Below are positions 30,244 through 64,000 of a DNA stretch of 64,000 nt, one piece after another. The position numbers were made by a program, and so were the translations under genes. Under the pieces are notes generated by a model. The model made no database searches. It saw only the letters and a list, made by a program, of their open reading frames with translations, and was not told the DNA's origin. The DNA is from Mya arenaria (Eukaryota; Mollusca; Bivalvia; Myida; Myidae): NCBI RefSeq assembly GCF_026914265.1, contig NC_069123.1:52212949-52276948 (forward strand), given 5' to 3'. Within the stretch, counting starts at the first letter, position 1. Each line of letters begins with the position of its first letter.

Positions 30244-30524
30244 AAAGGAACCGCCGAGTAGCAAATCCTGATCTATATACAGGCTCCTACTGGGAGGTTA
30301 ATTATTTACACATTTGCAACATTTCCCACTTGTTAGATTTCTACTGTCTTGTCACAGTTGGTGATGAAAGAACAGGCCACACGATAAATTAAAAAGGAAA
30401 TTCTTGTTATCAAACTACTAGTATATTGCAGCATTCTTATCTTTCTAATGCGTATGAAAACACGGACTATATATTGCATGTTTTTAATATTCCTTATGCG
30501 TATAAAATATAGACTTTTCGTTTT

Positions 30525-31889
30525 CATTACACGCATGTGGTATGTCCTGAATCATTACACGTATGTGGTAGGTCATGTATCATTACAGGTATGTGGTATG
30601 TCCTGAATCATTACACGTATGTGGTAGGTCATGTATCATTACACGCATGTTGTATGTCCTGAATCATTACACGTATGTGGTAGGTCATGTAGCATTACAC
30701 GTATGTGGTAGGTCATGTAGCATTACACGTATGTGGTATGTCCTGAATCATTACACGTATGTGGTAGGTCATGTATCATTACACGCATGTGGTATGTCCT
30801 TAATCATTACACGTATGTGGTAGGTTATGTATCATTACACGCATGTGGTATGTCCTTAATCATTACACGTATGTGGTAGGTCATGTATCATTACACGCAT
30901 GTGGTATGTCCTTAATCATTACACGTATGTGGTAGGTCATGTATCATTACACGCATGTGGTATGTCCTTAATCATTACACGTATGTGGTAGGTTATGTAT
31001 CATTACAGGTATGTGGTATGTCATGTAGCATTACACGTATGTGGTAGATCATGTATGTGGTATGTCATTTATTATTACACGTATGTGGTAGGTCATGTAT
31101 CATTACACGTATGTTGTATGTCATGTATCATTACACGTATGTGGTAGGTCATTTATTATTACACGTATGTGGTAGGTCATGTATCATTACACGTATGTGG
31201 TAGGTCATGTATCATTACACGCAGGTGGTAGGTCATTTATTATTACACGTATGTGGTATGACATTTATCATTACACGTATGTGGTAGGTCATGTACCATT
31301 ACATGGTTGTGGTAGGTCGTGTACCATTACACGTTTGTGCTAGGTCGTTTACCATTACACTTATGTGGTAGGTCAATGATTCATTACACGTAAGTGGTAG
31401 GTCATGTAGCATTACACGTATGTGGTAGGTCATGTAGCATTACACGTATGTGGTAGGTCATGTATCATTACACGTATGTGGTAGGACATGTAGCATTACA
31501 CGTATGTGGTAGGTCATGTACCATTACACGGTTGTCGTAGGTAGTGTACCATTACAATTATGTGGTAGGTCAATGATTCATTACACGTAAGTGGTAGGTC
31601 ATGTATCATTACACGTATGTGGTAGGTCATTTATCATTACACGTTTGTGGTAGGTCATGTAGCATTACACGTATGTGGTAGGACATGTAGCATTACACGT
31701 ATGTTGTAGGTCATGTAGCATTACACGTAGGTTGTAGGTCATGTAGCATTACACGTATGTGGTAGGTCATGTAGCATTACACGTATGTTGTAGGTCATGT
31801 ATCATTACACGTTTGTGATAGGTCATGTATCATTACACGTTTGTGGTAGGTCATTTATCATTACACGTTTGTGATAGGTCATGTATCAT
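30525..31889. repeat. 28 bp tandem array, about 49 copies, with a 56 bp dimer phase
   Basis: The basic unit is 28 bp: CATTACACGTATGTGGTAGG then TCATGTAT. In the first 500 bp two forms alternate (GGTATGTCCTGAAT/GGTATGTCCTTAAT against GGTAGGTCATGTAT), giving a 56 bp higher-order repeat. Further on only the simple 28 bp form remains, with scattered substitutions (GTTTG, GTTGT). Open frames across it are artefacts. It lies between genes B and C. Confidence 0.96.
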
Positions 31890-39000: not shown

Positions 39001-42000
39001 CAAAATGCCACATCGAACGTCAATGCCACGATTCCACTAAAGAATGACAACATGCCACATCGAACGTCAATGCCACGATTCCACTAAAGCATGACAAAAT
39101 GTCACACCGAACGTCAAGGCCACGATTCCACCAAAGAATGAAAAAATGTCACACCGAACGTCAAGGCCACGACTCCACTAAAGAATAACAAAATGTCACA
39201 CCGAACGTCAAGGCCACATTTCCACTAAAGAATGACAAAATGTCACACCGAACGTCAAGGCCACGATTCCACTAAAGAATGACAAAATGTCACACCGAAC
39301 GTCAAGGCCACGACTCCACTACAAAATGACAAAATGTCACACCGAACGTCAAGGCCACGACTCCACTAAAGAATGACAAAATGTCACACAGAACGTCAAG
39401 GCCATGACTCCACTACAAAATGTCACACCGAACGTCAAGGCCACGACTCCATTACAAAATGACAAAATGTCACACCAAACTTCAAGGCCACGATTCCACT
39501 AAAGAATGAAAAAATGTCACTCCGAACGTCAAGGCCACGATTCCACTAAAGAATGACAAAATGTCACACCGAACGTCAAGGCCACGACTTCACTACAAAA
39601 TGTCACAACGAACGTCAAGGCCACGACTCCACTACAAAATGACAATATGTCACACCGAACGTCAAAGCCACGATTCCACTACAAAATGACAAAATGTCAC
39701 ATCGAACGTCAAGGCCACGATTCCACTAAAGAATGACAAAATGTCACACCGGACGCCAAGGCCACGATTCCACTTAAGAATGACAAAATGTCACATCGAA
39801 CGTCAAGGCCACGATTCCACTAAAGAATGAAAAAATGTCACTCCGAACGTCAAGGCCACGATTCCACTAAAGAATGACAAAATGTCACATCGAACGTCAA
39901 GGCCACGATTCCACTACAAAATGACACATCGAACGTCAAGGCCACGATTCCACAACAGAATGACAAAAAGTCACATCGAACGTCAAGGCCACGATTCCAC
40001 AACAGAATGACAAAAAGTCACATCGAACGTCAAGGCCACGATTTCACAACAGAATGACAAAATGTCATACCGAACGTCAAGGCCACGATTCCACCAAAGA
40101 ATGAAAAAATGTCACACCGAACGTCAAGGCCACGATTCCACTAAAGAATGAAAAAATGTCACTCCGAACGTCAAGGCCACGATTCCACTAAAGAATGACA
40201 AAATGTCACACCGAACGTCAAGGCCACGACTCCACTACAAAATGTCACAACGAACGTCAAGGCCACGACTCCACTACAAAATGACAAAATGTCACACCGA
40301 ACGTCAAAGCCACGATTCCACTACAAAATGACAAAATGTCACACCGAACGTCAAGGCCACGATTCCACTTAAGAATGACAAAATGTCACATCGAACGTCA
40401 AGGCCACGATTCCACTAAAGAATGACAAAATGTCACACCGGACGTCAAGGCCACGATTCCATTACAAAATTATAAAATGTCACATCGAACGTCAATGCCA
40501 CGATTCCACTAAAGAATGACAAAATGTCACATCGAACGTCAAGGCCACGATTCCTCTAAAGAATGACAACATGTCACATCGTCAAGGCCAAGATTCCACT
40601 AAAGAATGACAAAATGTCACACCGAACGTCAAGGCCAAGATTCCACTAAAGAATGACAAAATGTCACACCGAACGTCAAGGCCACGATTCCACTAAAGAA
40701 TGACAAAATGTCACACCGAACGTCAAGGCCACGATTCCACTAAAGAATGACAAAATGTCGCATCGAACGTCAAGGCCACGATTCCACAAAAGAATGACAA
40801 AATGTCACACCGAACGTCAAACCACGATTCCACTTAAGAATGACAAAATGTCACATCGAACATCAAGGCCACGATTCCACTAAAGAATGACAAAATGTCA
40901 CTCTGAACGTCAAGGCCACGATTCCACTAAAGAATGACAAAATGTCACACCGAACGTCAAGGCCACGATTCCACTAAAGAATGACAAAATGTCACACCGA
41001 ACGTCAAGAGCACGATTCCACTTAAGAATGACAAAATGTCACACCGAACATCAAGGCCAAGATTCCACTAAAGAATGACAAAATGTCACACCGAACGTCA
41101 AGGCCACGATTCCACTAAAGAATGACAAAATGTCACACCGAACGTCAAGGCCACGATTCCACCAAAGAATGAAAAAATGTCACACCGAACGTCAAGGCCA
41201 CGATTCCACTAAAGAATGAAAAAATGTCACTCCGAACGTCAAGGCCACGATTCCACTAAAGAATGACAAAATGTCACACCGAACGTCAAGGCCACGACTC
41301 CACAACAAAATGTCACAACGAACGTCAAGGCCACGACTCCACTACAAAATGACAAAATGTCACACCGAACGTCAAAGCCACGATTCCATTACAAAATTAT
41401 AAAATGTCACATCGAACGTCAATGCCACGATTCCACTAAAGAATGACAAAATGTCACATCGAACGTCAAGGCCACGATTCCTCTAAAGAATGACAACATG
41501 TCACATCGTCAAGGCCAAGATTCCACTAAAGAATGACAAAATGTCACACCGAACGTCAAGGCCAAGATTCCACTAAAGAATGACAAAATGTCACACCGAA
41601 CGTCAAGGCCACGATTCCACTAAAGAATGACAATATGTCACATTGAACGTCAAGGCCACGATTCCTCTAAAGAATGACAAAATGTCACATCGTCAAGGCC
41701 AAGATTCCACTAAAGAATGACAAAATGTCACACCAAACGTCAAGGCCACGATTCCACTAAAGCATGACAAAATGTCACACCGAACGTCAAGGCCACGATT
41801 CCACTAAAGAATGACAAAATGTCACACCGAACGTCAAGGCCACGATTCCACTAAAGAATGACAAAATGTCACACCGAACGTCAAGGCCACGACTCCACTA
41901 CAAAATGACAAAATGTCACACCGAACGTCAAGGCCACGACTCCACTAAAGAATGACAAAATGTCACACAGAACGTCAAGGCCATGACTCCACTACAAAAT

Positions 42001-42884
42001 GTCACACCGAACGTCAAGGCCACGACTCCATTACAAAATGACAAAATGTCACACCAAACGTCAAGGCCACGATTCCACTAAAGAATGAAAAAATGTCACT
42101 CCGAACGTCAAGGCCACGATTCCACTAAAGAATGACAAAATGTCACACCGAACGTCAAGGCCACGATTACACTAAAGCATGACAAAATGTCACATCGAAC
42201 GTCAAGGCCACGATTCCACTAAAGAATGACAAAATGTCACATCGAACGTCAAGGCCACGATTCCACTAAAGCATGACAAAATGTCACACCGAACGTCAAG
42301 GCCACGATTCCACTAAAGAATGAAAAAATGTCACTCCGAACGTCAAGGCCACGATTCCACTTAAGAATGACAAAATGTCACATCGAACGTCAAGGCCACG
42401 ATTCCACTACAAAATGACACATCGAACGTCAAGGCCACGATTCCACAACAGAATGACAAAAAGTCACATCGAACGTCAAGGCCACGATTCCACAACAGAA
42501 TGACAAAAAGTCACATCGAACGTGAAGGCCACGATTTCACAACAGAATGACAAAATGTCACACCGAACGTCAAGGCCACGATTCCACCAAAGAATGAAAA
42601 AATGTCACACCGAACGTCAAGGCCACGATTCCACCTAAAGAATGAAAAAATGTCACTCCGAACGTCAAGGCCACGATTCCACTAAAGAATGACAAAATGT
42701 CACACGAACGTCAAGGCCACGACTCCACTACAAATGTCACAACGAACGTCAAGGCACGATTCCACTACAAAATGACACATCGAACGTCAGGCCACGATTC
42801 CACAACAGAATGACAAAAAGTCACATCGAAACGTCAAGGCCACGATTCCACAAACAGAATGACAAAAAGTCACACGAACGTCAA
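36022..42884. repeat. 47 bp tandem array, about 146 copies, with long internal duplications
   Basis: The unit is 47 bp: GACAAAATGTCACACCGAAC, then GTCAAGGCCACGATTCCACT, then AAAGAAT. A rare unit lacking four bases (CATCGTCAAGG instead of CATCGAACGTCAAGG), preceded by CGATTCCTCTAAAG, recurs near 36647, 38781, 40578, 41505 and 41688 with matching neighbours. This shows that blocks of up to about 2.1 kb were copied within the array. Short units missing part of the monomer recur in the same way. The last 250 bases (from about 42630) carry many one-base indels absent elsewhere. Open frames such as 37889-38158 are artefacts. Confidence 0.97.
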
Positions 42885-43125
42885 TTTATTTTCACTACGC
42901 ACAAAAGAGTTCCAGAATTTTTTTTACATTTTTACTAAATTTTGTTTAACTGAGGTGGGAGAAAAAGCATCTACCATAGCCGCTCGCAGTGTAAGATAGG
43001 TTCATCTCGACCCTCGCGCAGGGTGTTTTGCGGATCCTCGGTAAAACTCGTTTCCGCAAAACACCCTACGCTCTGGTCGTGATGAACCTATCATACACTC
43101 TTGGCCATGGAAGATACTTATAATC
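42885..43125 (-). mobile_element. Interspersed element with GTTTTGCGGAAACGAGG palindrome, copy 2
   Basis: In minus orientation this matches 27695-27905 and 63660-63880: GTATCTTCCATGGCC, the TAGGTTCATC...GATGAACCTATC palindrome around GTTTTGCGGA/TTCCGCAAAACACC, then GATGCTTTTTCTCCCACCTC and AGTTAAACAAA. It is cut off at TTTATTTTCACTACGC, exactly where the 47 bp array ends, so the array abuts or interrupts this element. Confidence 0.8.
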
Positions 43126-45396: not shown

Positions 45397-45867
45397 TATA
45401 CACTTAGTAACTTGAGACCTCAACTTAGTAAATTAAGGCCACAACTTACTAAATTGTGGCCACAACTTAGTAAATTGTGGCCACAATTTACTAAGTTGAG
45501 GCCTCATGTTACTAAGTTGTGGCCACAATTTAGTAAGTTGTGGCCTCAAGTTACTAAGTTGTGGCCACAATTTACTAAGTTGTGGCCACAATTTATTAAG
45601 TTGTGGCCTCAATTTACTAAGTTGAGGCCTCAAGTTACTAAGTTGTGGCCTCAAGTTACAAAGTTGTGGCCTCAATTTAGTAAGTTGTGGCCTCAAGTTA
45701 TTAAGTTGTGGCCACAATTAACTAAGTTGTGGCCACACTTTACTAAGTTGTGGCCTCAATTTACTAAGTTGTGGCCTCAAGTTAGTAAGTTGTGGCCACA
45801 ATTTAATAAGTTGTGGCCTCAATTTACTAAGTTGTGGCCTCAAGTTAGTAAGCTGTGGCCACAATAT
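45397..45867. repeat. 21 bp self-complementary minisatellite inside the transposon
   Basis: The unit is AAGTTGTGGCCTCAATTTACT (21 bp), with GGCCACAA and GGCCTCAA forms, about 22 copies. The GGCCACAA form contains the 12-base palindrome TTGTGGCCACAA, and the 21-mer is close to its own reverse complement. So both strands are open and both translate to KLWPQ-type 7-residue repeats. These open frames have no other gene features. Confidence 0.95.
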
Positions 45868-46003: not shown

Positions 46004-46543
46004 ATGTGGTGTCAGAAAGCGTGTGTGCTTATAATGATTCTCACCCGAATAATTCAACTGGAATGCGCTCCGACCGAGCCGCCGCCAATATGCTGCCTTC
46101 CCAAGCAGTATGAGGCGTTCCTGTTCCTGTCGAGTGGTGCAGTTGACGTTGGCACGAATTACGGATTTGGGTACAGCAACGGCACGGTGGCGATAGCGTT
46201 TGACGGCACACGTCAGTTGACGTACATTCACGCCAAGACCGACAATTTCCTTTCGCTGTACCCGATACCTATACCAGAGGATTATTTAAATATCATCGAC
46301 TATAAAAATGTAAGTATTCTGTGGCAAGCCTAACGAAATTAATCTTTATGGAAAAATAAATATATTGGATGACATTAATCTTATCACTTTTGTTAATGAT
46401 AGGTTTCATTAAATATACGGATATAAACGCATTTTAGCCGACATAAAGATACACAAGTCCAAGTTTTTGAAACGTTTTCTTTTTAAAAAAAACATCCTAC
46501 AAAACTACCATTCTTTAAAAGCCTGTGAGACCAGTTTAAATAC

Positions 46544-46595
<52 letters not shown>

Positions 46596-47655
46596 CAACC
46601 ACAAAAATAACAATTACAACCTTTTCGAGACTTGCATTGTCATATTGATTGCTCAAACATCTTCAACGTCCCGTCAGATAAATCATGACGAAGGCTGCGA
46701 TGGATAAATATATCAGTCACGACAGTCATACAACACTTTATAGACAGGTCGCCTTTAACTGGGCGCCTTGGATATATTTTCAAAAACGCAAAGGGTATTG
46801 ATAGCATGACAACAGTACATGTAGTTCCTTTCCAAATCTAAGAACGATGTAACAACAAACGCCTGAATGTTTACAGAATGTCCAGTGGCGCGTGTATAGT
46901 GACGGCTCCTGTGATACGCTCGACGTTGGCTTGCCGTTGTTTAAGGAATGCATACCCGGTACGTCATAACGAAATATGAGAGGAGAGTTCAGTGTATATA
47001 ACATCGCTGATGTCTTGACCTCATTGAAAATAATTTCTATACTCGATGGCATAACTAATAACGTTGACCATAACGACCATTGTAGGGAACGCGACCCTTC
47101 TGTCACGAGGCCGCATAGGGAATTCCGAACAGGAAGTCGCAACATACCTTTTCCGGCAAAGAATTTACCTGGATCCAGATGAGATCACAGTTACCGTGCG
47201 CATGTCGGGTAAAAAATGATGCATTTGTGCACTGATGTCTACTGTTAACTTCTTTTTTTCTCGGCTTTAGTCCATGTCAACACTTATTGGGCATATTACC
47301 ACCTCCACCGTCTGTTTATCTAGACTCCACGCCTGGCGAATGCATTCCGGTCCGCGGTACCGTTTCCAGCGCTTACGTATTTGACAGCAACAAGAACGTA
47401 GACATCGCCGTCTATGACGTGCTCGACTTTACCCCGGGCATAAGAAACCCAGACGTCTTCAACAAACCGAGCCAGTGCAACAACTCAACGGTGTTGCATG
47501 AAAAGAACAGGTAAATAAAACGTAAATATTTGTTTTCCTATCTATTTTTTTTTAATACGGTGGTGTTTATTTTTAGTTATTATTTCAAACGTTTTCAACT
47601 TTTATTTACGTTCATTGATAACATTTCTGCTCTTTTCAGACTAACTATGACTTAA
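46004..47655 (+). CDS. Ependymin-related secreted protein 1
   Basis: Exons 46004-46309, 46877-46958, 47086-47208, 47324-47510 and probably 47640-47655; intron phases 0, 1, 1, 2; 237 residues. An N-terminal hydrophobic segment (residues 5-21) looks like a signal peptide. The mature part has the ependymin-family order: Ile-Cys-Cys-Leu-Pro-Lys-Gln-Tyr-Glu-Ala, a Tyr-Ser-Asn-Gly-Thr sequon, a SCDTL...KEC block, NATL, a YLDPDEITVTV strand, a C-V-rich segment (GECIPVRG) and a final Cys. Six mature Cys are shared with the paralogue at 50011, and two sequons (NGT, NAT) match. Ependymin-related proteins are secreted, Ca-binding beta-sandwich proteins linked to the extracellular matrix; the role here is inferred. 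If exon 4 is read through, it stops at once after Arg at 47512, but a GTAAAT donor there and a strong TCTTTTCAG acceptor before 47640 favour the fifth exon. An AATAAA lies at 47712. Confidence 0.88.
46545..46592 (+). repeat. (CAG)16 microsatellite
   Basis: Sixteen uninterrupted CAG triplets lie in intron 1 of the first ependymin-related gene. They are not coding in this gene model. Confidence 0.97.
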
Positions 47656-48265: not shown

Positions 48266-49866
48266 ATCATTATCAGCCAATATCATCACTGTGTGGGAAG
48301 GGACACCGGATATAGTTCAAAAGGTGATAAGTAAACAGACAATTATGAAGTTGTTTTAATTTACCAGAGGTAAGATCTTGCTGTGTTAACGCATATCTAC
48401 CGTATCCACAAATGAAGCAAGTGTTTGAACTAATAGCTGAATGCTAAATTTGGCCAATGGTATGCTTTAAAGTGCTTACGATTTAGCAGACCTCGTAAAA
48501 GGTTTCTTCAAATCTGAGATGATCACCTCAAAACTTACTGAATTTCGACAAGTATTGTTATTTTTAGGAAATATATCGAATAAATAAAAAATCTGAATCG
48601 AAGGATTTCACAAGAATAAGCTCAACTATTTTTATTGTAAGAAATGGCAATGTAACTTTTAAACTGTTAAAGATATGCCCTTAGAAATGTTCACAGTACT
48701 GTACTGGGGATAGCCGTATTATGTACTGGGGATAGCTTCAAAGTTGAGAAATGAGTGTCCTGGTGATAACATGTAAAATGGGACAAACATTTATAGTAAC
48801 ACTGTTAATATACACTATACATGTATATGTCTATTTCGAACTTTCAAATAATCTGCAAAAAGTGAGAGTACATTTTGATAAGAAATTATTGAGCAAACTT
48901 TAGTTAACAATGAGTTGATCCGTGCTCTCCTAAATGAACGTATAAATGCAAGCTGCGTAAATATCAGGGATTCGTCACAATACATTCTTTCTCACTGAAG
49001 TGAACGAGCAGAGACCATTATTTTGTTCTAAGTAATACCAACATCGACCCAAGCTTAGAACAAAGCTTTACGTGTTCCAATTGTGATCACAATATCCCTA
49101 CTGGTGACTTTCTGTTTGCAAAAACGTACCTACTTGATTTACAAAGCAATATTATATATATGAATAGCAAACACCACAAAAATTCTACGGCCATATGTTT
49201 TGTGTTTCTCAATAAATCAGATTACCGGCGTATTTCAAATATTTAGATATTGATGCTTGTGAAAAAACACATCATGGTTGACTAATATGTATGAATGAAA
49301 CAGTTTTAAGTGTATACAGATACAAAGAACAACAAGATGTTTTTGCTCTCATCACTTGATATTGACAACATCGAACAATTTCCCTCGAGCTCGCGTATAG
49401 ATAAATAGCCGTAATCATTATCACAGTCTCGTTTTTCTAAATACATCGTTACTATCCTCAGTCCACTTAATAGCTATCCCCTATATATCATATTGATATT
49501 TTACACATTACTAGATTATGTAATTACAATGAAATCGCTCGATTCAGTTTTTATTCTTACTTTCAATTTGTTGATTTATGTTTGAAATCGTACCACATAA
49601 ATGAACATTTGTGAGCAATCATGCAACTTTCGGCGAGAATTGGGCTATTATACAAAAGAGGAGACACATTTCCATCATAGACGTATATTGCACAGGATCA
49701 AGTTATTCAAAACTCTTCGATTTTGTTAAATATATCACCATAAAATACAAAAAATGATAGAAAACTGTCCATGTGTCAAAACCAAACGCTTATCGAGTGA
49801 TCACTTTTTGAGCTATATCCGGTGTCCGTTCCCACACAGTGATCATTGAGGCATTGATAATCGAGG
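48266..49866. mobile_element. 1.6 kb element bounded by about 60 bp inverted repeats
   Basis: The left arm (48268-48330) includes ATCACTGTGTGGGAAGGGAC and ACCGGATATAGTTCAAAAGG. The right arm (49797-49863), read on the minus strand, gives ATCACTGTGTGGGAACGGAC and ACCGGATATAGCTCAAAAAG. The 1.45 kb interior has no recognised open frame. It sits exactly between the two ependymin-related genes. This may be a non-autonomous DNA element, or two inverted copies of a short repeat. No target duplication was identified. Confidence 0.6.
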
Positions 49867-50010
49867 CCACATAACCTTTAGCGAATAAAGCATTTGCCAT
49901 TCCCAGTTTTCGTTATACTAGTTTCACCACCATTGCATTTGCCGGCTACGATAACATACAAAAAAAAGACATAACTTACTTTGCGAATATTATTTCACCA
50001 CACTGTTCCG

Positions 50011-53000
50011 ATGACCACAATGGACGCGGCGATGTTTTTCTTCAATTTTGCTATGTTGACGCTGTTGGTCGGACTCCAGGCTACACCGGGCGAGTCACGC
50101 CCTGCGAGTGGTTTGGAGCCCATCTGCTGCTTCCCCATGCAATACGAGGCCTTTATGGTCGTTGCTACAGGCGCCGTCAACACTGGACAATACGGCTACG
50201 CTAACGGAACCGTAATTGTGGCGTTCGATGGTGTACGTCAGCTCACGTTTTTCCATGAAGACACACTATCAGTGACAACAAGCTGGCCTATTCCCATCCC
50301 GCAGATCTTCGCAGACATTTTGGACTATGAATCTGTGAGTTAGATACCGTTCATGTTACCCTTAAACGTTAACAATTTGTTTTTCTTATAATGCACAATA
50401 CCTTTATCTCTGTTGTATACCATATGGTGATATGCCGATACATTGAACAATCTGTTCTGTATGTTAACCAGAATGTTCAATGGCGGGTGTATGCGGACGA
50501 GTCATGTGACACACTGGAGGTGGGCCTGCCGCTCTACCAAGAGTGCATCCCAGGTCAGTAACACGTTCAATATAATTAAAAGAGATTGAAAACCATTGTT
50601 AAACAACCGTATCCAATGAAAGAATTAATTTTACTATTGCGTTGCAGACGATATAATTAATTATATTAAAACCGTCAATGTTTCGTAGGTAATGCAACGC
50701 TGATAGCACGAGGTTCCCTGGGGGATAGTAGTCTAACCGTTGCCACGTTCTTGTTCCGGGACAGGATCTACCTCGACCCGTATGAAATCACGATCACCGT
50801 CCATATTAACGGTAGGTCTTTAACCAGCATAAGATATCACTCCGTGTCCATACCATACCAAAGGTATGCCCCCCCCCTCCTCCCATCCCCGACCGTCCAT
50901 ATCAACGGTAGCCTCTCACTAGGATGAGATTACCAATATCAAAGGTAGCCCCCGCCTGTATGAGATCATACTCACCGTCATTATGTACGGTATGTCCTGG
51001 ACCCGCATAGGATCACACTCCCTGTTTATATCAATGTTAAGTCCTAGACCCGCATGGGATCTCATTCCCCGTTCATATCAATGTTAAGTCGTAGAGGCGC
51101 ATGAAATCACACTCACCGTTCATGTCAATGTTAAGTCCTAGACAAGCATGAGATCACACTCACCATTCATGTCAATGTTAAGTCTTAGACTCTCATGAAA
51201 TTACAATCACCGTTCATGTCAATGTTCAGTCCTAGACTCGCATGAAATCACAATCACCGTTCATGTCAATGTTAAGTCCTAGACTCGCATGAGATCAGAC
51301 TCACGGTTCATGTCAACGTTAAGTCCTAGACCCACATGAAATCACACTCACGGTTCATGTCAATGTTAAGTCCTAGACCCGCATGAGATCACAATCACCG
51401 TTCATGTCAACGTTAAGTCCTAGACCCGCATGAGATCACAATCACCGTTCATGTCAACGTTAAGTCCTAGACCCGCATGAAATCACACTCACCGTTCATG
51501 TCAATGTTAAGTCCTAGACTCGCATGAAATCACACTAGACCCGCATGAAATCACACTCGCCGTTCATGTCAACGTTAAGTCCTAGACGGTTCATGTCAAT
51601 GTTGAGTCCTAGACTCGCATGAGATCACAATCACGGTTCATGTTAATGTTAAGTCCTAGACCCGCATGAGATCACACTCACGGTTCATGTTAATGTTAAG
51701 TCCTAGACCCGCATGATATCACACTCACCGTTCATGTTAATGTTAAGTCCTAGACCCGCATGAGATCACACTCACCGTTCATGTCAATGTTAAGTCCTAG
51801 ACCCGCATGAGATCACACTCACCGTTCATGTCAATGTTAAGTCCTAGACCCGCATGAGATCACACTCACCGTTCATGTCAATGTTAGGACCTAGACCCGC
51901 ATGAGATCACACTCACCGTTCATGTCAACGTTAAGTCCTAGACCCGCATGAAATCACACTCACCGTTCATGTCAATGTTAAGTCCTAGACTCGCATGAGA
52001 TCACACTCACGGTTCATGTCAATGTTAAGTCCTAGACTCGTATGAAATCACACTCACCGTTCATGTCAACGTTAAGTCCTAGACCCGCATGAGATCAAAA
52101 TCACCGTTCATGTCAACGTTAAGTCCTAGACCCGCATGAGATCACAATCACAGTTCATGTCAATGTTAAGTCCTAGACCCGGATAAGATCACACTCACGG
52201 TTCATGTCAATGTTAAGTCCTACACTCACCGTTCATGTCAATGTTAAGTCCTAGACTCGCATGATCCCACACTCACGGTTCATGTCAACGTTAAGTCCTA
52301 GACCCGCATGAAATCACAATCACCGTTCATGTCAATGTTAAGTCCTAGACTCGCATGAGATCACACTCACCGTTCATGTCAACGTTAAGTCCTAGAATCG
52401 CATGAAATCACACTCACCGTTCATGTCAACGTTAAGTCCTAGAATCGCATGAGATCACAATCACCGTTAATTTCAACGTTAAGTCCTAGACTCGCATGAT
52501 CCCACACTCACCGTTCATGTCAATGTTAAGTCCTAGACTCGCATGAGATCACAATCACCGTTCATGTCAATGTTAAGTCCTAGACCCGCATGAAATCACA
52601 ATCGCCGTTCATGTCAATGTTAAGTCCTAGACTCGCATGAGATCACAATCACCGCTAATGTCAATGTTAAGTCCTTGACTCGCATGAAATCACACTCATC
52701 GTTTATGTCAACGTTAAGTCCTAGACTCGCATGAAATCACACTCACCGTTCATGTCAATGTTAAGTCCTAGACCCGCATGAAATCACACTCAACGTTCAT
52801 GTCAACGTTAAGTCCTAGACCCGCATGAAATCACACTCACCGTTCATGTCAATGTTAAGTCCTAGACCCGCATAAGATCACACCCACCGTTCATGTCAAC
52901 GTTAAGTCATAGACTCGCATGAAATCACACTCACCGTTCATGTCAACGTTAAGTCCTAGACCCGCATGAAATCACACTCACCGTTCATGTCAATGTTAAG

Positions 53001-56000
53001 TCCTAGAATCGCATGAAATCACACTCACCGTTCATGTCAATGTTATGTCCTAGACTCGCATGAGATCACATTCACCGTTCATGTCAATGTTAAGTCCTAG
53101 ACTCGCATGAAATCACACTCACCGTTCATTCAATGTTAAGTCCTAGACTCGCATGAAATCACACTCACCGTTCATGTCAACGTTAAATCCTAGACCCGCA
53201 TGAAATCACACTCACCGTTCATGTCAATGTTAAGTCCTAGACTCGCATGAAATCACACTCACCGTTCATGTCAATGTTAAGTCCTAGACTCGCATGAAAT
53301 CCCACTAGACCCGCATGAAATCACACTCACCGTTCATGTCAACGTTAAGTCCTAGACGGTTCATGTCAATGTTGAGTCCTAGACCCGCATGAGATCACAA
53401 TCACCGTTCGTTAAGTTCTAGACCCGCATGAGATCACACTCACGGTTCATGTAAATGTTAAGTCCTAGACCCGCATGAGATCACACTCACCGTTCATGTC
53501 AATGTTAAGTCCTAGACCCGCATGAGATCACACTCACCGTTCATGTCAATGTTAAGTCCTAGACCCGCATGAGATCACACTCACCGTTCATGTCAATGTT
53601 AGGACCTAGACCCGCATGAAATCACACTCACCGTTCATGTCAACGTTAAGTCCTAGACCCGCATGAAATCACACTCACCGTTCATGTCAATGTTAGGACC
53701 TAGACCCGCATGAAATCACACTCACCGTTCATGTCAACGTTAAGTCCTAGACCCGCATGAAATCACACTCACCGTTCATGTCAACGTTACGTCCTAGACC
53801 CGCATGAGATCACACTCACCATTCATGTCAACATTAAGTCCTAGACTCGCATGAGATCACAATCACCGTTCATGTCAACGTTAAGTCCTAGACCCGCATG
53901 AGATCATACTCGCCGTTCATGTCAATGTTAAGTCCTAGACTCGCATGAGATCACACTCACCGTTCATGTCAATGTTAAGTCCTAGACTCGCATGAAATCA
54001 CACTCACCGTTCATGTCAACGTTAAGTCCTAGACCCGCATGAGATCACAATCACCGTTCATGTCAATGTTAAGTCCTAGACCCGCATAAGATCACACTCA
54101 CGGTTCATGTCAATGTTAAGTCCTAGACCCGCATGAAATCGTCAATGTTAAGTCCTAGACCCGCATGAGATCACACTCACGGTTCATGTCAACGTTAAGT
54201 CCTAGACTCGCATGATCCCACACTCACCGTTCATGTCAATGTTAAGTCCTAGACCCGCATGAGATCACACTCACGGTTCATGTCAACGTTAAGTCCTAGA
54301 CTCGCATGATCCCACACTCACCGTTTATGTCAATGTTAAGTCCTAGACCCGCATGAAATCACACTCACCGTTCATGTCAATGTTAAGTCGTAGACCCGCA
54401 TGAGATCACACTCACCGTTCATGTAAACGTTAAGTCGTAGACCCGCATGAGATCACACTCACCGTTCATGTTAACGTTTAGTCGTAGACCCGCATGAGAT
54501 CACACTCACCGTTCATGTCAACGTTAAGTCCTAGACCCGCGTGAGATCACACTCACCGTTCATGTCAACGTTAAGTCCTGGACCCGCGTGAGATCACACT
54601 CACCGTTCATGTCAACGTTAAGTCCTGGACCCGCGTGAGATCACACTCACCGTTCATGTCAACGTTAAGTCCTGGACCCGCGTGAGAACACACTCACCGT
54701 TCATGTCAACGTTAAGTCCTGGACCCGCGTGAGAACACACTCACCGTTCATGTCAACGTTAAGTCCTGGACCCGCGTGAGATCACACTCACCGTTCATGT
54801 CAACGTTAAGTCCTGGACCCGCGTGAGATCACACTCACCGTTCATGTCAACGTTAAGTCCTGGACCCGCGTGAGATCACACTCACCGTTCATGTCAACGT
54901 TAAGTCCTGGACCCGCGTGAGATCACACTCACCGTTCATGTCAACGTTAAGTCCTGGACCCGCGTGAGATCACACTCACCGTTCATGTCAACGTTAAGTC
55001 CTAGACCCGCGTGAGATCACACTCACCGTTCATGTCAACGTTAAGTCCTGGACCCGCGTGAGATCACACTCACCGTTCATGTCAACGTTAAGTCCTGGAC
55101 CCGCGTGAGATCACACTCACCGTTCATGTCAACGTTAAGTCCTGGACCCGCGTGAGATCACACTCACCGTTCATGTCAACGTTAAGTCCTGGACCCGCGT
55201 GAGATCACACTCACCGTTCATGTCAACGTTAAGTCCTGGACCCGCGTGAGATCACACTCACCGTTCATGTCAACGTTAAGTCCTGGACCCGCGTGAGATC
55301 ACACTCACCGTTCATGTCAACGTTAAGTCCTGGACCCGCGTGAGATCACACTCACCGTTCATGTCAACGTTAAGTCCTGGACCCGCGTGAGATCACACTC
55401 ACCGTTCATGTCAACGTTAAGTCCTGGACCCGCGTGAGATCACACTCACCGTTCATGTCAACGTTAAGTCCTGGACCCGCGTGAGATCACACTCACCGTT
55501 CATGTCAACGTTAAGTCCTGGACCCGCGTGAGATCACACTCACCGTTCATGTCAACGTTAAGTCCTAGACCCGCGTGAGATCACACTCACCGTTCATGTC
55601 AACGTTAAGTCCTAGACCCGCGTGAGATCACACTCACCGTTCATGTCAACGTTAAGTCCTAGACCCGCGTGAGATCACACTCACCGTTCATGTCAACGTT
55701 AAGTCCTAGACCCGCGTGAGATCACACTCACCGTTCATGTCAACGTTAAGTCCTAGACCCGCGTGAGATCACACTCACCGTTCATGTCAACGTTAAGTCC
55801 TAGACCCGCGTGAGATCACACTCACCGTTCATGTCAACGTTAAGTCCTAGACCCGCGTGAGATCACACTCACCGTTCATGTCAACGTTAAGTCCTAGACC
55901 CGCGTGAGATCACACTCACCGTTCATGTCAACGTTAAGTCCTAGACCCGCGTGAGATCACACTCACCGTTCATGTCAACGTTAAGTCCTAGACCCGCGTG

Positions 56001-57269
56001 AGATCACACTCACCGTTCATGTCAACGTTAAGTCCTAGACCCGCGTGAGATCACACTCACCGTTCATGTCAACGTTAAGTCCTAGACCCGCGTGAGATCA
56101 CACTCACCGTTCATGTCAACGTTAAGTCCTAGACCCGCATGAGATCACACTCACCGTTCATGTCAACGTTAAGTCCTAGACCTGCATGAGATCACACTCA
56201 CCGTTCATGTCAACGTTAAGTCCTGGACCCGCATGAGATCACACTCACCGTTCATGTCAACGTTAAGTCCTAGACCCGCATAAGATCACACTTACCGTTC
56301 ATGTCAACGTTAAGTCCTAGACCCGCATAAGATCACACTCACCGTTCATGTCAACGTTAAGTCCTAGACCCGCATAAAATCACACTCACCGTTCATGTCA
56401 ATGTTAAGTCCTAGACTCGTATGAAATTACACTAAACAATCGAATGCTATTTGCCTTTTTGCCCAAAACAACCAAATGAATTTTAAATCAACTGCAAGAT
56501 CTTTGACCAGCCAATAGATTTCACACATAAAATAACCACCGACTGCCGCCGTCATCTGTTTGGCGTATTACTTCACGCATCACGTGGAGCTTACTACTGG
56601 AAAGACGGGCTCATTATCACGCAACGTACCCATACATGTACATTTACAGTGTGGATTTGTTTTGCTTCAACCGACCAATCAAATTCAACCTCTTTGAAAA
56701 GTCTCAAATAATAATAATAGTAGTTTTCAATAGAATTTTCGAAATGGCTATTGTGCAATAACGGATAATTATAAAATTGTGACGCACTTTAATGTCGAAG
56801 GACTGGCCCGTGTCTGAATGCAAACAGTTTCATTATTTTTAAATAGAATATACCACTGTAAAATTTGACCAACACCACACACAGTGAAAAGGATACAAGT
56901 TTTACATTTCCTTGCAAAAGATTGTACATTTCTATCTCAAAACGAGATGAAATAATGTTCAAAACGGTTTATATATTGGCTTTCCCCATCCACTTTGGTT
57001 CGTGGAAAGCCCTTAAGTTTCATGTACATGTATATTATAATACTGTAAAAGAGACTGGTTCCGCTAGCGAGTGTGTGCCTGTACGAGGAACGATCTCCAG
57101 TGTATACGTGTTTGACAGCAATCAGAACGTGGACATCGCTACATATGACGTGCCCGACTTTACACGAGGGATCCGTGACGCTGACGTCTTCAACAAGCCA
57201 GATCAGTGCGCCGCTACACCATCTCCCGGGCTAAAACAGGTTCATTTAAGAGCACGTATTATGTTATAG
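50011..57269 (+). CDS. Ependymin-related secreted protein 2, intron 3 expanded by a satellite
   Basis: Exons 50011-50334, 50472-50553, 50689-50811 and 57052-57269 (phases 0, 1, 1) give 248 residues. A signal peptide covers about residues 7-27. Family landmarks in order: ICCFPMQYEAF, YANGT sequon, SCDTL...QEC, NATL, YLDPYEITITV, SECVPVRG, VYVFDSNQNVDIATYDV and a final Cys. Exons 2 and 3 are exactly the same size (82 and 123 nt) as in the neighbour at 46004, so they are tandem paralogues; the six mature Cys agree. The exon 4 acceptor (TGTAAAAG at 57044-57051) is weak but keeps phase and the homology. Intron 3 is 6,240 bases, against 115 in the paralogue, nearly all of it satellite. The C-terminus is uncertain: the frame runs to TAG at 57267, but a CAG|GTTCAT site at 57239 could splice to TTGATGCAG at 57933, as the paralogue has an extra last exon. 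Confidence 0.85.
50812..56434 (+). repeat. 47 bp satellite derived from the exon 3/donor junction of the host gene
   Basis: About 115 copies of a 47 bp unit (CTAGACCCGCATGAGATCAC, then ACTCACCGTTCATGTCAACG, then TTAAGTC) fill intron 3. Exon 3 ends CTCGACCCGTATGAAATCAC, then GATCACCGTCCATATTAACG, and the intron begins GTAGGTC. Aligned without gaps, 37 of 47 positions agree. Array variants restore further matches (CATGAAATCAC, CACAATCACCGT). The first copies (50812-51000) are irregular and keep exon-like GGTAG, as in CCATATCAACGGTAG at 50896-50910. The block 54540-56150 is almost uniform and uses GCGTGAGATC. A composite junction (CACTAGACCCGCATG ... CCTAGACGGTTCATG) near 51530 recurs near 53286, showing a duplicated segment of about 1.76 kb. 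Confidence 0.95.
56435..57051. other. End of intron 3 of ependymin-related gene 2
   Basis: Unique intron sequence between the satellite and exon 4. No feature was recognised apart from a short (AATA) run near 56705. Confidence 0.5.
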
Positions 57270-58181
57270 GTTACATAGCCCAAAACCTTTGCATGAAATT
57301 ATGTTCAAATATACATTCCGGTAGTATTTCCACTGCCAACGTTTGTCTGATATGATTAATTGAATTTTATACCCTGTTATTCGGAGCCATATATCCTTGA
57401 AATTGTTCGCGAAACTCGACCAAATTTTGTTAGTCACACCAAATACCCGTTTCACTAAGCGATTTCCAAACCTCGTTCGATGTGTACAAAGTGACTGTAA
57501 TATGGAAGCTAGATATTGCTGACTTATAATAAGTGTCCCGCCTTATTACCAACCAAATATTCTCTCTAAAAGTATCAAGCCACACCCGGCATCAGTTTCG
57601 CAGTGTTGTCATTCTTACATTTTACTTCAATCTTTGGGTTAATGTGGTGCTTAACTACATTAAAAAATACTTTTGGTGACGAAACAAGTTATGAATGTGA
57701 CTACCCGGAATTCGGCCGCGTTTCAATGCTCCCCCCCCCCCCCATATGACGCTGTTGTACAAATACCTCACAGCATCATTATTATGTTGTTTAGGGCAGT
57801 ACCCGACCATCTGCGTTTCTTCGAGGAGGGCTCATTGACGGAATGGTGAACAGTTTTCGGAGAAGGAAAATATAGTTTAACGACTGGCTAAACGAACCGA
57901 CAGTGTGAAATGTTTTTGTTTAATTGATGCAGGAAATTGTCAACAACAAACTATTGTAGTCTATAGGCTTCCCTTTGTATAATGGTTATAATTTGATACA
58001 CACAAGTAAGGTACACACTATGAAAATAATCTTGAAATAGATTGTTATTCGTCTTGACACAAGTGCTTGTTTGTGCATGGAGTACGCGTGTGTGGAGGTA
58101 CGCAACTAGGAGGAATAAAGAAATAATACAATTAATAAAATGATATCATAAGAAAAAAAGTTTTAATCAATTTGATACAAA
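57270..58181. other. Convergent intergenic region
   Basis: Between the + strand ependymin-related gene and the - strand transporter. It holds a 13-base C run (57731-57743). A TTTAAT at about 58160 (ATTAAA on the minus strand) is a possible polyadenylation signal for the transporter. No gene was recognised. Confidence 0.45.
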
Positions 58182-59932
58182 TCACATCTTCGTTGACAGT
58201 TTGTCGTCTTCATATTCTTCATTTACTTGAATTGAAACATCGTTCTTATTTTTTTCATAGCGACTCCCGTGTTGTGAGCCAACTATGTTCATTGCTACAG
58301 CTAGAGTAAATTGCAAAACACCATAGCCAAGTGCCTGATATAAGAACGTCTTAGGACCAAAGTTCTTGTACAGGTATCCGATGAGGCGCATGTGACAAAT
58401 GCCGCCGACGGACGCTCCGAAAGTCTGGAGGGTGAGCCCAAGGCCGGTGAGGACGATATGGTAATCGATCCAGGCGATCCCCGTGGGCCAGCTGGCCGAC
58501 GCAAAGAAGGCGAACGCCAGCATGGCCACCCAGAGTGAAAGCGAGTCGTCGTCCGCCAGCAGAACCAGAATAACAGATGATACAGCCATCCCCGCTGTCT
58601 CAACCAGTATCAGTAAACGCACAGACAGTATTCTAGCGAAGAACGAGAACACCAGCCTTCCCACGGAGAAACTGATCCAGTAACCCGTATTGAGAAGGGT
58701 CGCGCTGTCTTTGGTGAACTTCAACTGGTCGATGGAATAACTTCTGATAAAACTACCAATCATTCTGTCACCACCTCCAATGTTTCCAAAGTAGAGGAAC
58801 ACCAGTGAGAATATCTGAACTCCGTACCAAAAGTGTCCACCAGCACATGAGGCCGGGTTAACCATCTCTAAAAGGGACTTGCCTTTTTCTTCTTCAGTAC
58901 TTATTGTATTAGTTGTTTCTATTTCATTTTCCACGGTGTGTTCCATCATTGGTGGAATCATTTTCCATTCCCTTACTTGATATGCATAGAAGACCAGAGA
59001 CAGACACGCGGCAAAAGCCGCTGATATCCCATATGGATACTCAATTCTAGAAACGGATAAACTGGTATTAGAAATTGTCCCATTGTTTTTTATTGCGCCA
59101 TTGCCTTCAACCGTACCATTGTTATACAGTGTATCATTGCCGTAATCTGCGTCACCAGCGGTGTCGGCAAGGAAAGGGTTGGCATAGAGAGGGACAATAA
59201 AGGAGCCGATCCCATAACCAAGATGAACCAACATCAGGGGCGACACCGACTTCTCCTTCCACATATTAAACAGTATCCGGGTCCCGGCTGTAATAAGAAA
59301 ATTAGTGGTTGCATACTTTTGATGGTTATTATGGTTAGATAAGGAATTTATTATTTATAGCTGTGTGAGGTATTGGAGCACCTAGTTTATAAAATCACTA
59401 TTTTACGAAATGAGACTTTGCAATTAATTTCTGCTTTCCTTGGTAGTACAACTGGTATACTGACATATGTTTAGGATGGATTCCACGAAACCGCCTATGA
59501 AACAGAAAACCCACAAGCACGTGACTGAAGGCGACATGGGAATGGCGGCGGTCACCCCCGCGGCCACATCCAACACTACGGCTAGCATAAGATGGCAATA
59601 TCCGGGAAACCGGTCAACCAGCACGCCGCCAACCACCGCGCCTGGGAACCAGCCAACACTGCGACCGGAAATTGCTACCGCCACTTTCTCATAGTCTGTG
59701 TGCAGTCTGTCCTTGAGGTCTATGAGCGTAGGTCCGTATATCTCCACATATAATGCCTGGAAAAATAACATATATTCCTTAGTAGTTGCACAAGCAATTT
59801 AGAATTTCAGTTAACCTCAACCTAATTCAGTTAACAAAAACAAAGGTCACCTACCAAGGCCATCCATGTGACGATCAGGCATGCCGTTTCTAATATTTTC
59901 CCCACGAAGCTCCTTCCATCCTTCCCCTCCAT
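58182..59932 (-). CDS. MFS transporter, MFSD4/NaGLT1-like
   Basis: Three exons on the minus strand: 59932-59855, 59756-59465 and 59287-58182, phases 0 and 1, total 491 residues. Twelve hydrophobic segments are expected for the major facilitator superfamily; the first crosses the exon 1/2 junction. ALYVEIYGPTLIDLKDRL resembles the start of MFSD4-type proteins. ISGRSVGWFPG and GGVLVDRF (motif A region between segments 2 and 3) follow. The later half has FLYFGNIGGGDRMIGSFI and a GYWISFSVGRL block. A long extracellular loop carries several Asn sequons (NDT, NGT, NGT, NTS). MFSD4B (NaGLT1) moves glucose with sodium in mammals; the substrate here is unknown. Motif A departs from the usual DRxGR (here DRFPG). 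The paralogue 62834 lies head to head. Confidence 0.87.
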
Positions 59933-60953
59933 TATTCACGCTACAGACGAGCTTCCGCTGTATGACGTCATAAAGCAAACAGTTGGCGCGCTTTTCCTTT
60001 AAATCCAACCAATTTCAGTAGATGAAGATTATAGTTTAAAAGCCTCCAATTTATATAAAATTGGTGCATAGATAAAAATAAAAACGAATTAAATCAAAAT
60101 AAAAAAAATCCAAGTATTAACATGACAGCATTTTATGACATTAATTAATGAAGTTTCACAACTCGTTAAACCTTAACTTAAGGCTAAAATGCTAAACTTT
60201 GGTTGCAATATCTCAGTAATTTACGCAGCGAAAAAACAATCAAACCAAAAACAAACAACGACTGAGATCGGATACTTGAAGCGAAGGATTGGATTTATTT
60301 ATTTCCAAGGCATTCAGGATCGTGGCACAACGGTGACCTACACTTGTTACAATTACCGTACACTATACAAGGTATGTATGTATAGGTTTTGTAAGACAAT
60401 AACACTCATGAAGCATACGGGCAAATTAAAACAGACATTTAAATCTTCAAAAAGGAAAAACATTTCATTTTCATTCAATCGAAACGAGGAAATGGCTTCC
60501 ATATGACCTCACTAAAAGCGTCATTCATATATTTAATATAATATGTAAATGCTTTATGCGATTCGTAATGTCACTCGAACCATTCGGTATGTGCGTGCAC
60601 ATGCATTTTGAACTCAACAACACCAGTATGTTGTGTATACAAGTCCTTCTCCATAGATTAAATAATGAGGTAATGTTCGCCCACAAGTCATTTCAGCCAA
60701 AATGTTCTGTTGCCAGAGTTGATAAATTATGAAAGCTTGCCAAATTTGAACGTCTTGGACTACAGCGAAATTGGTGCATTGGCTTAATGCTTTTCGGTTC
60801 ATGTTAAATAAAAAAATGCCTCAAACAAAACATCATATATTTTAGCATTATATCGATTGTCAACATTCCCAAAGCTGTCAAATGCATTTATGTACTGGAA
60901 TTTAAAAATCACTTGTAAGATCATCTTCATTTTTTGCATTATGCATTTGGTTC
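59933..60953. other. Intergenic region between divergent transporter genes, left part
   Basis: Probably includes the promoter of the minus-strand transporter. No TATA or other motif can be assigned. Short frames (60189-60506 and others) have no support. Confidence 0.4.
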
Positions 60954-61285
60954 TTTAAAGCTGCACTCTCACAGATTGACCATTTTATCAACATTTCTAT
61001 CTTTTGTCTTGGAAAGAGCAAATCTTTGCGTTAATTTCTGCAAGCCAATGATATAAGATTGCTGACAAAACATCAGACCGTAGATTTTCATATTTCCGTT
61101 CGAAAATTAATGTTTTATGCATAAAACATCAAATTTTTAACTTTTAAGTATAAAAATCTGCGATCTGATTTTTTCAGCTGTTTTATATAACTGGTTTCCA
61201 TGGATTTTTGCAAAAATTGGCTCTTTCCAAGACAAAAAATAAAAAAGTTGTCAAAACGTTTTATCTGTGAGAGTGCAGCTTTAAA
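60954..61285. mobile_element. Palindromic MITE with AGCTGCACTCTCA ends, copy 3
   Basis: The best-kept copy. TTTAAAGCTGCACTCTCACA at the left and TGTGAGAGTGCAGCTTTAAA at the right are perfect inverted repeats of 20 bases, and the interior continues as an imperfect palindrome. TTAA occurs at both boundaries. It lies between the divergent transporter genes. Confidence 0.82.
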
Positions 61286-62038
61286 AGAAGTCCTAAAATC
61301 ATTTGTTAATAATCTGGAGTCCGTTACCACTTGTCATGCTAGGTTATATTCTTACACGAACAGTCTGACGTCTACTTCAACAACAGCATCTCCAATGTTT
61401 GGACATATGAGAGATACGACACTTGTCAAATAACAAATCAGACTTCAAGCGATACTTCAATATTGTTGAACAGTACACAAAACAATTTATACCACAGATC
61501 ACAAAATTCATTTCGATTTGAGATATACCCAGATTAGTGTGGGCTTTGTACATAAAGCATTTAAGGTTCATGTTATATACGTAAAACATTACAATTTTAT
61601 CCCAAACTACGCCATGCCATTCGAAAATGCACTTTTTTATGACACATTTATCTCATCTTCATATTTTTTTGTATACATCATGGTATATAACGTTCAATAT
61701 TTATATATTACGCCGTTATGCAGTAAATAAAGTATGTCCTTTACGTTACAAACATGCAGACGACAACACTTTAAAAAATATACATTCAACCACACAACAA
61801 ATAAAGATATTCATTTATTATATGCTTTCCAGCGGTTTATAGAGATTTATCAGTGAAATCAAATTATGTTTCACTGTTTCACATGTTGTTATTTTCACTG
61901 TAAAATTTTGACCGCTAGAGTCTTCCGTGCAAATTATTATAGCGAAAATGACTTCGTTCGCATACAAATTTTGTGTTGTTTTTTTTTCTAAAAAAATACA
62001 ATAAAGGGTCATTTTCTAACCTTTTAAGGTACAAAATT
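61286..62038. other. Spacer
   Basis: No gene recognised. A short inverted motif (CAGTGAAAT...GTTTCACTG) lies near 61850-61878. Confidence 0.4.
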
Positions 62039-62344
62039 TCAAGGCCTAGTTTAAGAACAAAAAAAGTAAATAAAATAAATAAATAAAAAAATAAAATAAA
62101 AAAAGTTATGTACAGTACACAACCTCTGTTTATTGATCTTAATCTACCTGCCTTGAGCCCTTTTTTCAGATCTGCGATCTTAGTATCCTACTGTGCAGTT
62201 TTAGAGATAAATTATAAAAATGGACACTAAATGGCCCTGAGCCAATAAACGAATACACAGGAAATTGGCCTCTACTGTGACAACAGTGCAATTAGCACAA
62301 CAGGTGATTATCATGCCAAACATTCCTTAAACTAGGCCTTTAAG
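62039..62344 (-). repeat. Interspersed element, third copy (minus strand)
   Basis: On the minus strand this matches 24047-24345 and 24350-24665: GGCATGATAATCACCTGTTG, AATTGCACTG, TTCGTTTATTGGCTCAGGGC, CACAGTAGGATACTAAGATC and GATTAAGATCAATAAACAGA. It ends in AAACTAGGCCTT. On the plus strand it begins AAGGCCTAGTTTAAG, so this copy has short inverted ends. Confidence 0.75.
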
Positions 62345-62833
62345 AAAAAGAAAAAAATCGTTTCAGTGGAAGATCGCCGCATATTTCACAAAACAAACCA
62401 AACTCAATTGAAACAAAAAATTATTTTACATACAGTATATGATTTTAAAAATGAGATTGCTTTATTTCAAAGTTGAATATTTTTCACTGTTTCGAAATTT
62501 AAGCCAGTCTCACGTCCACATAAAACGTTAGGGCACAGGGCTTGGACACATTTTTCACGACGTCATTTCGGCAATGACGTTTTTACCCACGTCATAAAAG
62601 CAAACTAGTTTCCTTGTAAGATCGTAATATATTTCACTGGGTATGCACTTAAAGCTATATTTCACGAGTGACATATTTAATGAACATTGCAATTAAAAAT
62701 ATGTCTTACTCCATAGATGCCAAGTGAAGTAGCAATTTCTGGACAGTGATTATAAACATGCTAACGAGATAAACTCCCTGTCATTTACTTCACACACAAC
62801 ATTTAAAACGACGTATTCATATAAAATACAAAC
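62345..62833. other. Upstream region of the second transporter gene
   Basis: Contains fragments related to the 22485 palindromic element (TGTAAGATCGTAATATATTT near 62617). The promoter is presumably here, but no motif can be named. Confidence 0.4.
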
Positions 62834-64000
62834 ATGGAAACTAAAGAAGAACTAGGAGCTAAAAAGGACGATGCTGGGAAACCTATGAAAAGTACAGTGA
62901 CAAAGGTCATTGAAACTGGATTTCTCGTGGCGGCATGGTCGGTCATGGTAAGTTGGACACAATGAACTATTGAACTAAAATGGAATCTACCTCCATTCTA
63001 CAAGGTATAATTGTATATGATACTGCCACACTCCAATTCACCTTGTAATATATATATATCTTGTTTGGTAGTGTGCTGTAACAAATCAAATCGATTTTTT
63101 TTTTCAATTAGAAACGCCACAGCTCCAATTGTTTGTTTTTTGTTTTTGTTATTTTCGGTGCTATTTCAGGGTATATATTCGGAAATATACGGGCCCACTC
63201 AGAAAGACCTGGTTCTGAAACTAAACGCAGACTATGAGCAGATCGCGGTTGCTATTTCCGGGCGGACGGTGGGTTGGTTTCCGGGGTGCGTCCTGGGTGG
63301 GCTGTTGGTTGATCGGTTCGGACGCTGGTGTCACGTGATGTTGGCGGTCAGCCTGGAAGTTGCCGCCGCCGCTACTGTGGCCGTGCCTTACATTTCAAGC
63401 GTCAATCTACTTTGGGCAATCTGCTTTATTGGAGGCATCATGGAGTCCGTGATAAACATAGGTACTGCTCATATTTTCATTATTTCTTTACCTTTATCAC
63501 ATGTAAGGCCACAGTTGTTTTTATTATTTTATGCATGGTGCAAGAAAATATTTTCTCAAAGCCATTTATCAATGAACGACATGTTTAAGTATACAAGTAC
63601 ATACATTGTACTAAATAGTGTTTCTTGAACAACGGATATGCATATCTCCCATGGCCGAGAGTGTAAGATTATGAGTATCTTCCATGGCCGAGAGTGTAAG
63701 ATAGGTTCATTCCGACCCGAGCGTAGAGTGTTTTGCGGAAACGAGGTTTACCGAGTTTCCGCAAAACACCCTGCGCAAGGGTCGGAATGAACCTATCTTA
63801 CACGAGCGGCTATGGTAGATGCTTTTTCTCCCACCTCAGTTAAACAAAATAAAGTAAAAATGTATTACTATTGCGTATGGATATGCGATAGCACGTGATT
63901 GTCATGGATACGTGCGCAGTGATCCAGTTAATGTTAATAGTCAAATCGGTCTTTTTAAATAGTTCTAAGGAAAATGAAGCATTATTTCTTGAATGGTGCG
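62834..64000 (+). CDS. MFS transporter, MFSD4/NaGLT1-like (3' end outside window)
   Basis: Two exons are seen: 62834-62947 (38 codons, phase 0 donor GTAAGT) and 63170-63461 (292 nt, phase 1 donor GTACTG). The remaining exon or exons lie beyond 64000. Exon 2 has exactly the same length and intron phases as exon 2 of the minus-strand gene at 58182-59932. Shared blocks are IYGPTQKDL, ISGRTVGWFPG, GGLLVDRFGRWCHVML and LLWAICFIGGIMES. Unlike its neighbour it keeps a standard motif A (DRFGR). The N-terminus is longer and charged (METKEELGAKKDD...). Downstream, the intron holds a mobile-element copy from about 63655. Substrate is unknown; sodium-coupled sugar transport is inferred from family knowledge only. 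Confidence 0.85.
63655..64000 (+). mobile_element. Interspersed element with GTTTTGCGGAAACGAGG palindrome, copy 3 (cut by window end)
   Basis: Shares its whole order with 27695-28030 and its first 240 bases with the minus-strand copy 42885-43125. The inner palindrome is best kept here: GTGTAAGATAGGTTCATTCC at 63688-63707 is inverted at 63786-63805 (GGAATGAACCTATCTTACAC), with GTTTTGCGGAAAC facing GTTTCCGCAAAAC. The first 50 bases repeat the CCATGGCCGAGAGTGTAAGA motif. It lies in an intron of the transporter. Confidence 0.8.

Follow-up and report, generated by a model that had tools for sequence, protein, structure and literature searches.

We examined a stretch of 64,000 nucleotides (nt) of the Mya arenaria genome (assembly GCF_026914265.1, contig NC_069123.1, positions 52,212,949 to 52,276,948; C2:52212949-52276948 in the genome searches below), hereafter called the window, in whose coordinates positions are given unless marked otherwise. 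It contains a gene of the ependymin family, the focal gene, whose third intron is filled for most of its length by a tandem array of a 47-bp monomer. The monomer resembles the junction of exon 3 with this same intron, including the 5' splice site (donor), and the array very probably descends from that junction.

The gene models of the focal gene and of its tandem paralogue were predicted from the DNA letters as spliced reading frames (Table 1). The host gene is a member of the ependymin family: its spliced protein matches the Pfam family Ependymin (PF00811) at 35.5 bits (E = 1.3e-8), and that of the paralogue at 42.8 bits, for a cut-off of 32.3 bits. Its best relative of solved structure is mammalian ependymin-related protein 1 (E = 4.5e-4). 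The two proteins of the window are 57% identical, the phases at the ends of exons 1 to 3 are equal in both genes, and the motif LDPxEITxTV of focal exon 3 recurs in exon 3 of the paralogue. Intron 3 measures 6240 nt in the focal gene, mostly array, and 115 nt in the paralogue, where it holds no such array; Tandem Repeats Finder (TRF) reported only 21-bp and CAG arrays at the paralogue locus.

Table 1. Predicted exons, founder unit and repeat segments of the locus, in window coordinates.
Feature	Position	Strand	Remarks
Focal gene exon 1	50011..50334	+	ATG at 50011; spliced reading frame, sequence-based
Focal gene exon 2	50472..50553	+	82 nt; exon 2 of the paralogue equally long
Focal gene exon 3	50689..50811	+	123 nt; exon 3 of the paralogue equally long; last 40 nt form the exon part of the founder unit
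Focal gene exon 4	57052..57269	+	predicted; ends with, and includes, the first in-frame stop
Tandem paralogue	46004..47510	+	exons 46004-46309, 46877-46958, 47086-47208, 47324-47510
Founder unit	50772..50818	+	last 40 nt of exon 3 and first 7 nt of intron 3, donor G/GTAGGT; rank 1 match
Four decayed junction copies	50819..50996	+	lengths 48, 46, 38 and 46 nt in the parse; each with one GGTA
Array proper	50997..56434 (end approximate)	+	117 parsed units, 107 full-length and ungapped, 10 irregular; no GGTA
Most homogeneous block	54531..56128	+	CGCGTGAG variant
Remaining intron 3	56435..57051	+	four pieces, equalled or bettered by 39, 464, 420 and 228 of 500 shuffles

TRF assigned a period of 47 to positions 50960-56433. 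A wrap-around parse of 50690-56480 gave 125 rows. The local path has spurious ends (rows 1, 2 and 125); between them, row 3 corresponds to the exon unit, rows 4-7 to four decayed copies and rows 8-124 to the array proper, all in continuous register; counts over 107 units given below leave out the 10 irregular array rows. The decayed copies, 178 nt together, score 74 against the monomer, and the highest of 500 shuffles scores 40. Downstream of the array, none of the four pieces of the intron tail contains a monomer remnant that is significant against shuffles. Pairwise identity within bins of the array is 46.6 and 46.5 of 47 in the bins covering 54597-55796 and 45.3 in the bin that follows, and it ranges from 40.8 to 44.0 in the six bins before 54597. 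Because identity peaks at 54597-55796 and is lowest, at 40.8, at 50997-51596, we read the 3' half of the array, with its homogeneous block, as the latest expansion.

The majority monomer and the founder unit at 50772-50818 are identical at 37 of 47 positions when aligned without gaps, which reproduces the count made by hand in an initial annotation of this DNA. None of 5000 dinucleotide shuffles of the exon tail reached 37, with all 47 rotations free (mean 19.4, maximum 28). The whole window minus the array was then scanned with the 47 rotations of the monomer on both strands. Exon 3 of the focal gene ranked first (37/47), exon 3 of the paralogue second on the same diagonal (30/47; 29 in strict register), and background next (27); windows overlapping the exon unit reached 35 at 50794 and 31 at 50758. 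Against the array units, exon 3 averages 35.8 of 47 identities (range 32-38) and the paralogue 27.8 (24-30). The initial annotation had asked that exon 3 outdo both shuffled sequence and the exon 3 of the paralogue at 46004, and it does so in each comparison. The homology ends at the left edge of the unit: the 83 nt with which exon 3 begins show no significant match to the monomer (271 of 500 shuffles were as good).

Read in the frame of the exon, the exon unit gives LDPYEITITVHIN, the monomer LDPHEITLTVHVN and the paralogue LDPDEITVTVRMS; the reading phase that had been noticed in the repeat units is thus visible. No comparable single-copy source was found for six other arrays of the window (short TRF rows of two to four copies were left out of this test), the best match, 31/49, being the edge of the array concerned. 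Exon and monomer differ at 10 of the 47 sites. Transitions make up seven of these differences and are frequent at the other sites as well (132/175). At the 10 sites, 51 of 86 minor alleles carry the exon base. Variant units that recover exon-like bases, as previously claimed, thus exist, but they are weak as evidence: 41 of the 51 fall at sites 15 and 22, and site 3 has none in 23. A separate stretch in intron 1 (50346-50365) is identical to the monomer at 17 of 20 positions and is the sole match of that pattern outside the array; 2 of 500 shuffles equalled it in one test and 0 were expected in another, for a stretch picked post hoc among 12.

A dispersed satellite inserted at this place, resembling the exon by chance, would suit a window rich in unrelated tandem arrays. 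The chance of this is practically negligible, given that 0 of 5000 shuffles reach the exon match, that the second-best match is the paralogous exon, and that the matches in the genome are explained by the intron, exon 3 and one duplicate. The genome (1.216 Gb, 18 contigs) was searched at up to 3 mismatches with two patterns whose combined span is the whole monomer. The first, 25 nt taken from the monomer's 3' part, gave 184 forward matches, and 0 on the reverse strand and with the reversed control; these comprise 113 in the window and 71 in a second copy of the array (copy B). A 26-nt pattern from the exon part gave 176 forward matches (0 reverse, 0 control), comprising 107 in the window, with exon 3 as the first, and 69 in copy B. 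Matches were assigned to window and copy B by these sums, which add up without remainder. A search of the DNA with three monomers as queries listed the same two arrays only. Since the matches are fully accounted for by the window and one near-identical duplicate, we see no dispersed satellite; the older satellite spread over the genome that the initial annotation had set against its own proposal did not appear among the 184 and 176 matches. Judged by high abundance or presence at several loci, these matches in 1.216 Gb, confined to one gene and its duplicate, do not make a satellite. The repeat is a one-locus intronic minisatellite.

Copy B lies about 171 kb downstream, its array at C2:52437462-52440921 as matched. 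From window position 52949 onwards it is 99.7% identical over 12.55 kb, and its left flank aligns to window 48859-49845 without mismatches and with 8 gap bases. Copy B lacks window 49846-52948, which holds exons 1-3 and the beginning of the array. The near-identical stretches as a whole are window 48859-64000 and C2:52436477-52450000. The array that the two share is the 3' part, of nearly equal length (two 1-nt gaps) and with 12 differences. Several of the 12 fall where one monomer variant gives way to another, a pattern that gain or loss of single units would be expected to produce. Copy B may be a haplotype that the assembly retained, or a duplicate of recent origin that carries a deletion.

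The direction of descent follows from the paralogue. Exon 3 is older than the array, because the paralogue, whose exon 3 matches it in length and frame, has no such array. The reverse course, in which a pre-existing array supplied the end of exon 3 as an exonised satellite, would likewise place a similar exon and array side by side. We regard it as very improbable. The paralogue has the 123-nt length, the phase and the LDPxEITxTV motif of exon 3 without the array, the protein belongs to the ependymin family, and no independent array was found in the genome at the sensitivity used. One more distant relative points the same way. Four of 20 listed places with such relatives were fetched (L068 to L071). 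Of these, L070 carries an exon 3 homologue that is clear by tblastn (1.2e-8), and its 1051 nt of fetched DNA contain no tandem repeat; among the matches listed, the homologue is weak in L071 (E 0.11) and unconvincing in L068 and L069. All four are too remote for polarising single sites. A protein search of the genome with exon 3 found the focal gene and the paralogue only, and was insensitive, since it missed L070. A stretch of the paralogue's intron 3 that looked by eye like a monomer remnant was rejected, 31 of 500 shuffles being as good; it therefore lends no support to an array older than the gene duplication.

The true donor, ACG/GTAGGT at 50811, scores 3.78 bits with a splice-site weight matrix, on which all donor scores given here rest. 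Counted without alignment, the letters GGTA occur at 50811 and then at 50863, 50907, 50944 and 50989, once in each decayed copy, and 0 times in the 5.4 kb of the array (50997-56434). The place of the donor GT is occupied by TT in 107/107 full units, and none of the 490 GT sites at 51000-56433 scores above 3 bits. As a scoring exercise only, a G placed at site 41 lifts 98 of the 107 units above the 3.78 bits of the true donor. The presence of GGTA in the exon and in each decayed copy, and nowhere in the array, suggests that the copy that was amplified was one whose donor was dead. The frame beyond the donor of exon 3 is also open for 32 codons (50812-50907), up to another GGTA, which is in frame with the true donor.

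We therefore favor, with high confidence, descent of the array from the exon 3/donor junction of the focal gene, by tandem duplication and amplification of a donor-changed copy. This reading of the sequence follows from the junction being the best match in the window, from the paralogue coming next in the same register, from the continuous register of exon, decayed copies and array, from the genome sums and from the older exon. A short tandem duplication would have copied the end of exon 3 and the start of intron 3, 47 bp with the donor included, into the intron. A few early copies beside the exon would have kept the donor letters while decaying otherwise, and one copy in which the donor GT had become TT would have been amplified to about 117 units, presumably through recurrent local slippage or unequal exchange. 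The most recent homogenisation would be that of the 3' part. Provided that splicing uses the true donor at 50811, the array would be transcribed and spliced out.

Several results weigh against this account or narrow it. Among the 10 sites where exon and monomer differ, the paralogue shares the monomer base at 3, the exon base at 2 and neither at 5; the exon as it stands today, having changed too, therefore represents a lineage that is sister to the array, and no literal parent. A FastTree tree of 47 sites, rooted with the paralogue, included three of the four decayed copies; one of these, exon 3 and then the other two branch outside 61 distinct array units. Support along the founder path is weak, from 0.08 to 0.97, so the tree agrees with rooting on the exon without proving it. 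Exon-likeness shows no significant trend along the 107 full-length units (Spearman -0.16, p 0.11). Copies elsewhere in the genome that have diverged beyond 3 mismatches could have been missed. The loss of the donor is not significant by itself, because 10 random differences would hit the GT with a chance of 0.38 and because 14 of the 47 sites are invariant among the 107 units. In the parse, moreover, the GGTA of the first decayed copy lies five columns off the donor place and aligns with it only through a gap. What was first described as a satellite born from an exon/donor junction is better described as a one-locus minisatellite that descends from that junction, with the present exon 3 as its sister rather than its parent.

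A further step would be that loss of the donor licensed the expansion. Repeats born at an exon edge would stay few because they act as decoy donors, each inclusion of 47 nt shifting the frame, and only a copy with a dead donor would grow long. The 4/4 decayed copies with GGTA, the array without it, the TT of 107/107 units and the 98 of 107 units that would outscore the true donor in the exercise above all fit this. The loss is one event, however, with the chance of 0.38 already given, and decoys are evidently tolerated in the decayed copies, since the site at 50863 scores 4.07 bits against 3.78 for the true donor. We consider a necessary role of donor loss rather doubtful. That the decayed copies have been kept as alternative donors is improbable. 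Splicing at 50907 would lengthen the exon by 96 nt, 32 codons in frame and free of stops, and GGTA is kept in 4/4 decayed copies; but 50907 scores less than 3 bits, and the other three copies shift the frame.

The window holds further repeats. A second array of period 47 lies at 36022-42884 (148.6 copies), with no source found in the window; kinship with the focal monomer was rejected, the best rotations giving 22/47 forward and 18/47 reverse, equal to background. Five more arrays, of other periods, lie at 6902-10403, 14534-16256, 24972-25946, 30524-31889 and 45404-45865, the last, of 21 bp, being also a long inverted repeat of itself. Similar stretches with GTGTAAGATAGGTTCAT occur at 42968-43110 and 63640-63840; by eye they have the look of inverted repeats, and the pair is perhaps a dispersed mobile element. 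In L068 (239-762; near C2:49.254 Mb), a 57-bp tandem repeat of 9.3 copies lies immediately before the matched last exon of an ependymin-like gene. The unit matches the start of that exon at 24/34 positions in a local alignment, which 1 of 200 shuffles equalled (3 of 200 in an ungapped comparison), and the repeat could be, on this weak match, a second array born from an exon edge.

Many tandem arrays have no traceable source. At this locus a coding source, decayed early copies and the amplified form adjoin in register, and the paralogue supplies relative age and direction, which gives a concrete case of how a long array starts. If donor loss did license the expansion, the locus preserves both stages side by side; the idea that splice signals may filter the growth of intronic repeats is testable.

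Among known systems, intronic minisatellites are described for earthworm metallothionein, for which derivation from an exon is not stated in the parts of the paper covered (PMC12783039). The AGGT model of intron gain by tandem genomic duplication, in the part covered, likewise has exon DNA with splice signals duplicated in tandem within a gene; there a new intron arises inside an exon, whereas here an old intron, present at the same place in the paralogue, grows (PMC3443670). The CapA satellite of New World monkeys, according to the portions covered, arose from an intron of NOS1AP via duplication and unequal crossing-over, and is likewise tandem DNA traced to a single-copy gene segment (PMC7210261, PMC8210747). 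It differs in its length of about 1.5 kb, its purely intronic origin and its share of about 5% of a genome; the present array comes from an exon-intron edge and stays at its birthplace.

Our literature search for arrays born from an exon-intron edge found a single case, the 31-bp variable number tandem repeat (VNTR) of human CBS, c.1444_1467+7(16_21). In the parts of the sources covered, it lies at the exon 13/intron 13 boundary, with single-base differences among units (PMC2630376, PMC1395315). By its name its unit comprises 24 exon bases and the first 7 intron bases, as against 40 and 7 here, and it has 16-21 copies, as against about 117 and 4 decayed ones here (PMC2630376, as far as covered). 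The present repeat is of the same junction-spanning kind, its unit covering exon end and intron start (37/47) and its copies being contiguous with the exon. Here, exon and monomer differ at 10/47 sites and the donor letters are gone from the amplified units. The CBS VNTR is the closest precedent, and a repeat spanning an exon-intron junction is a kind already known. What the Mya arenaria locus adds is an array in which a coding founder, decayed early copies and an amplified form with a dead donor stand side by side in register.

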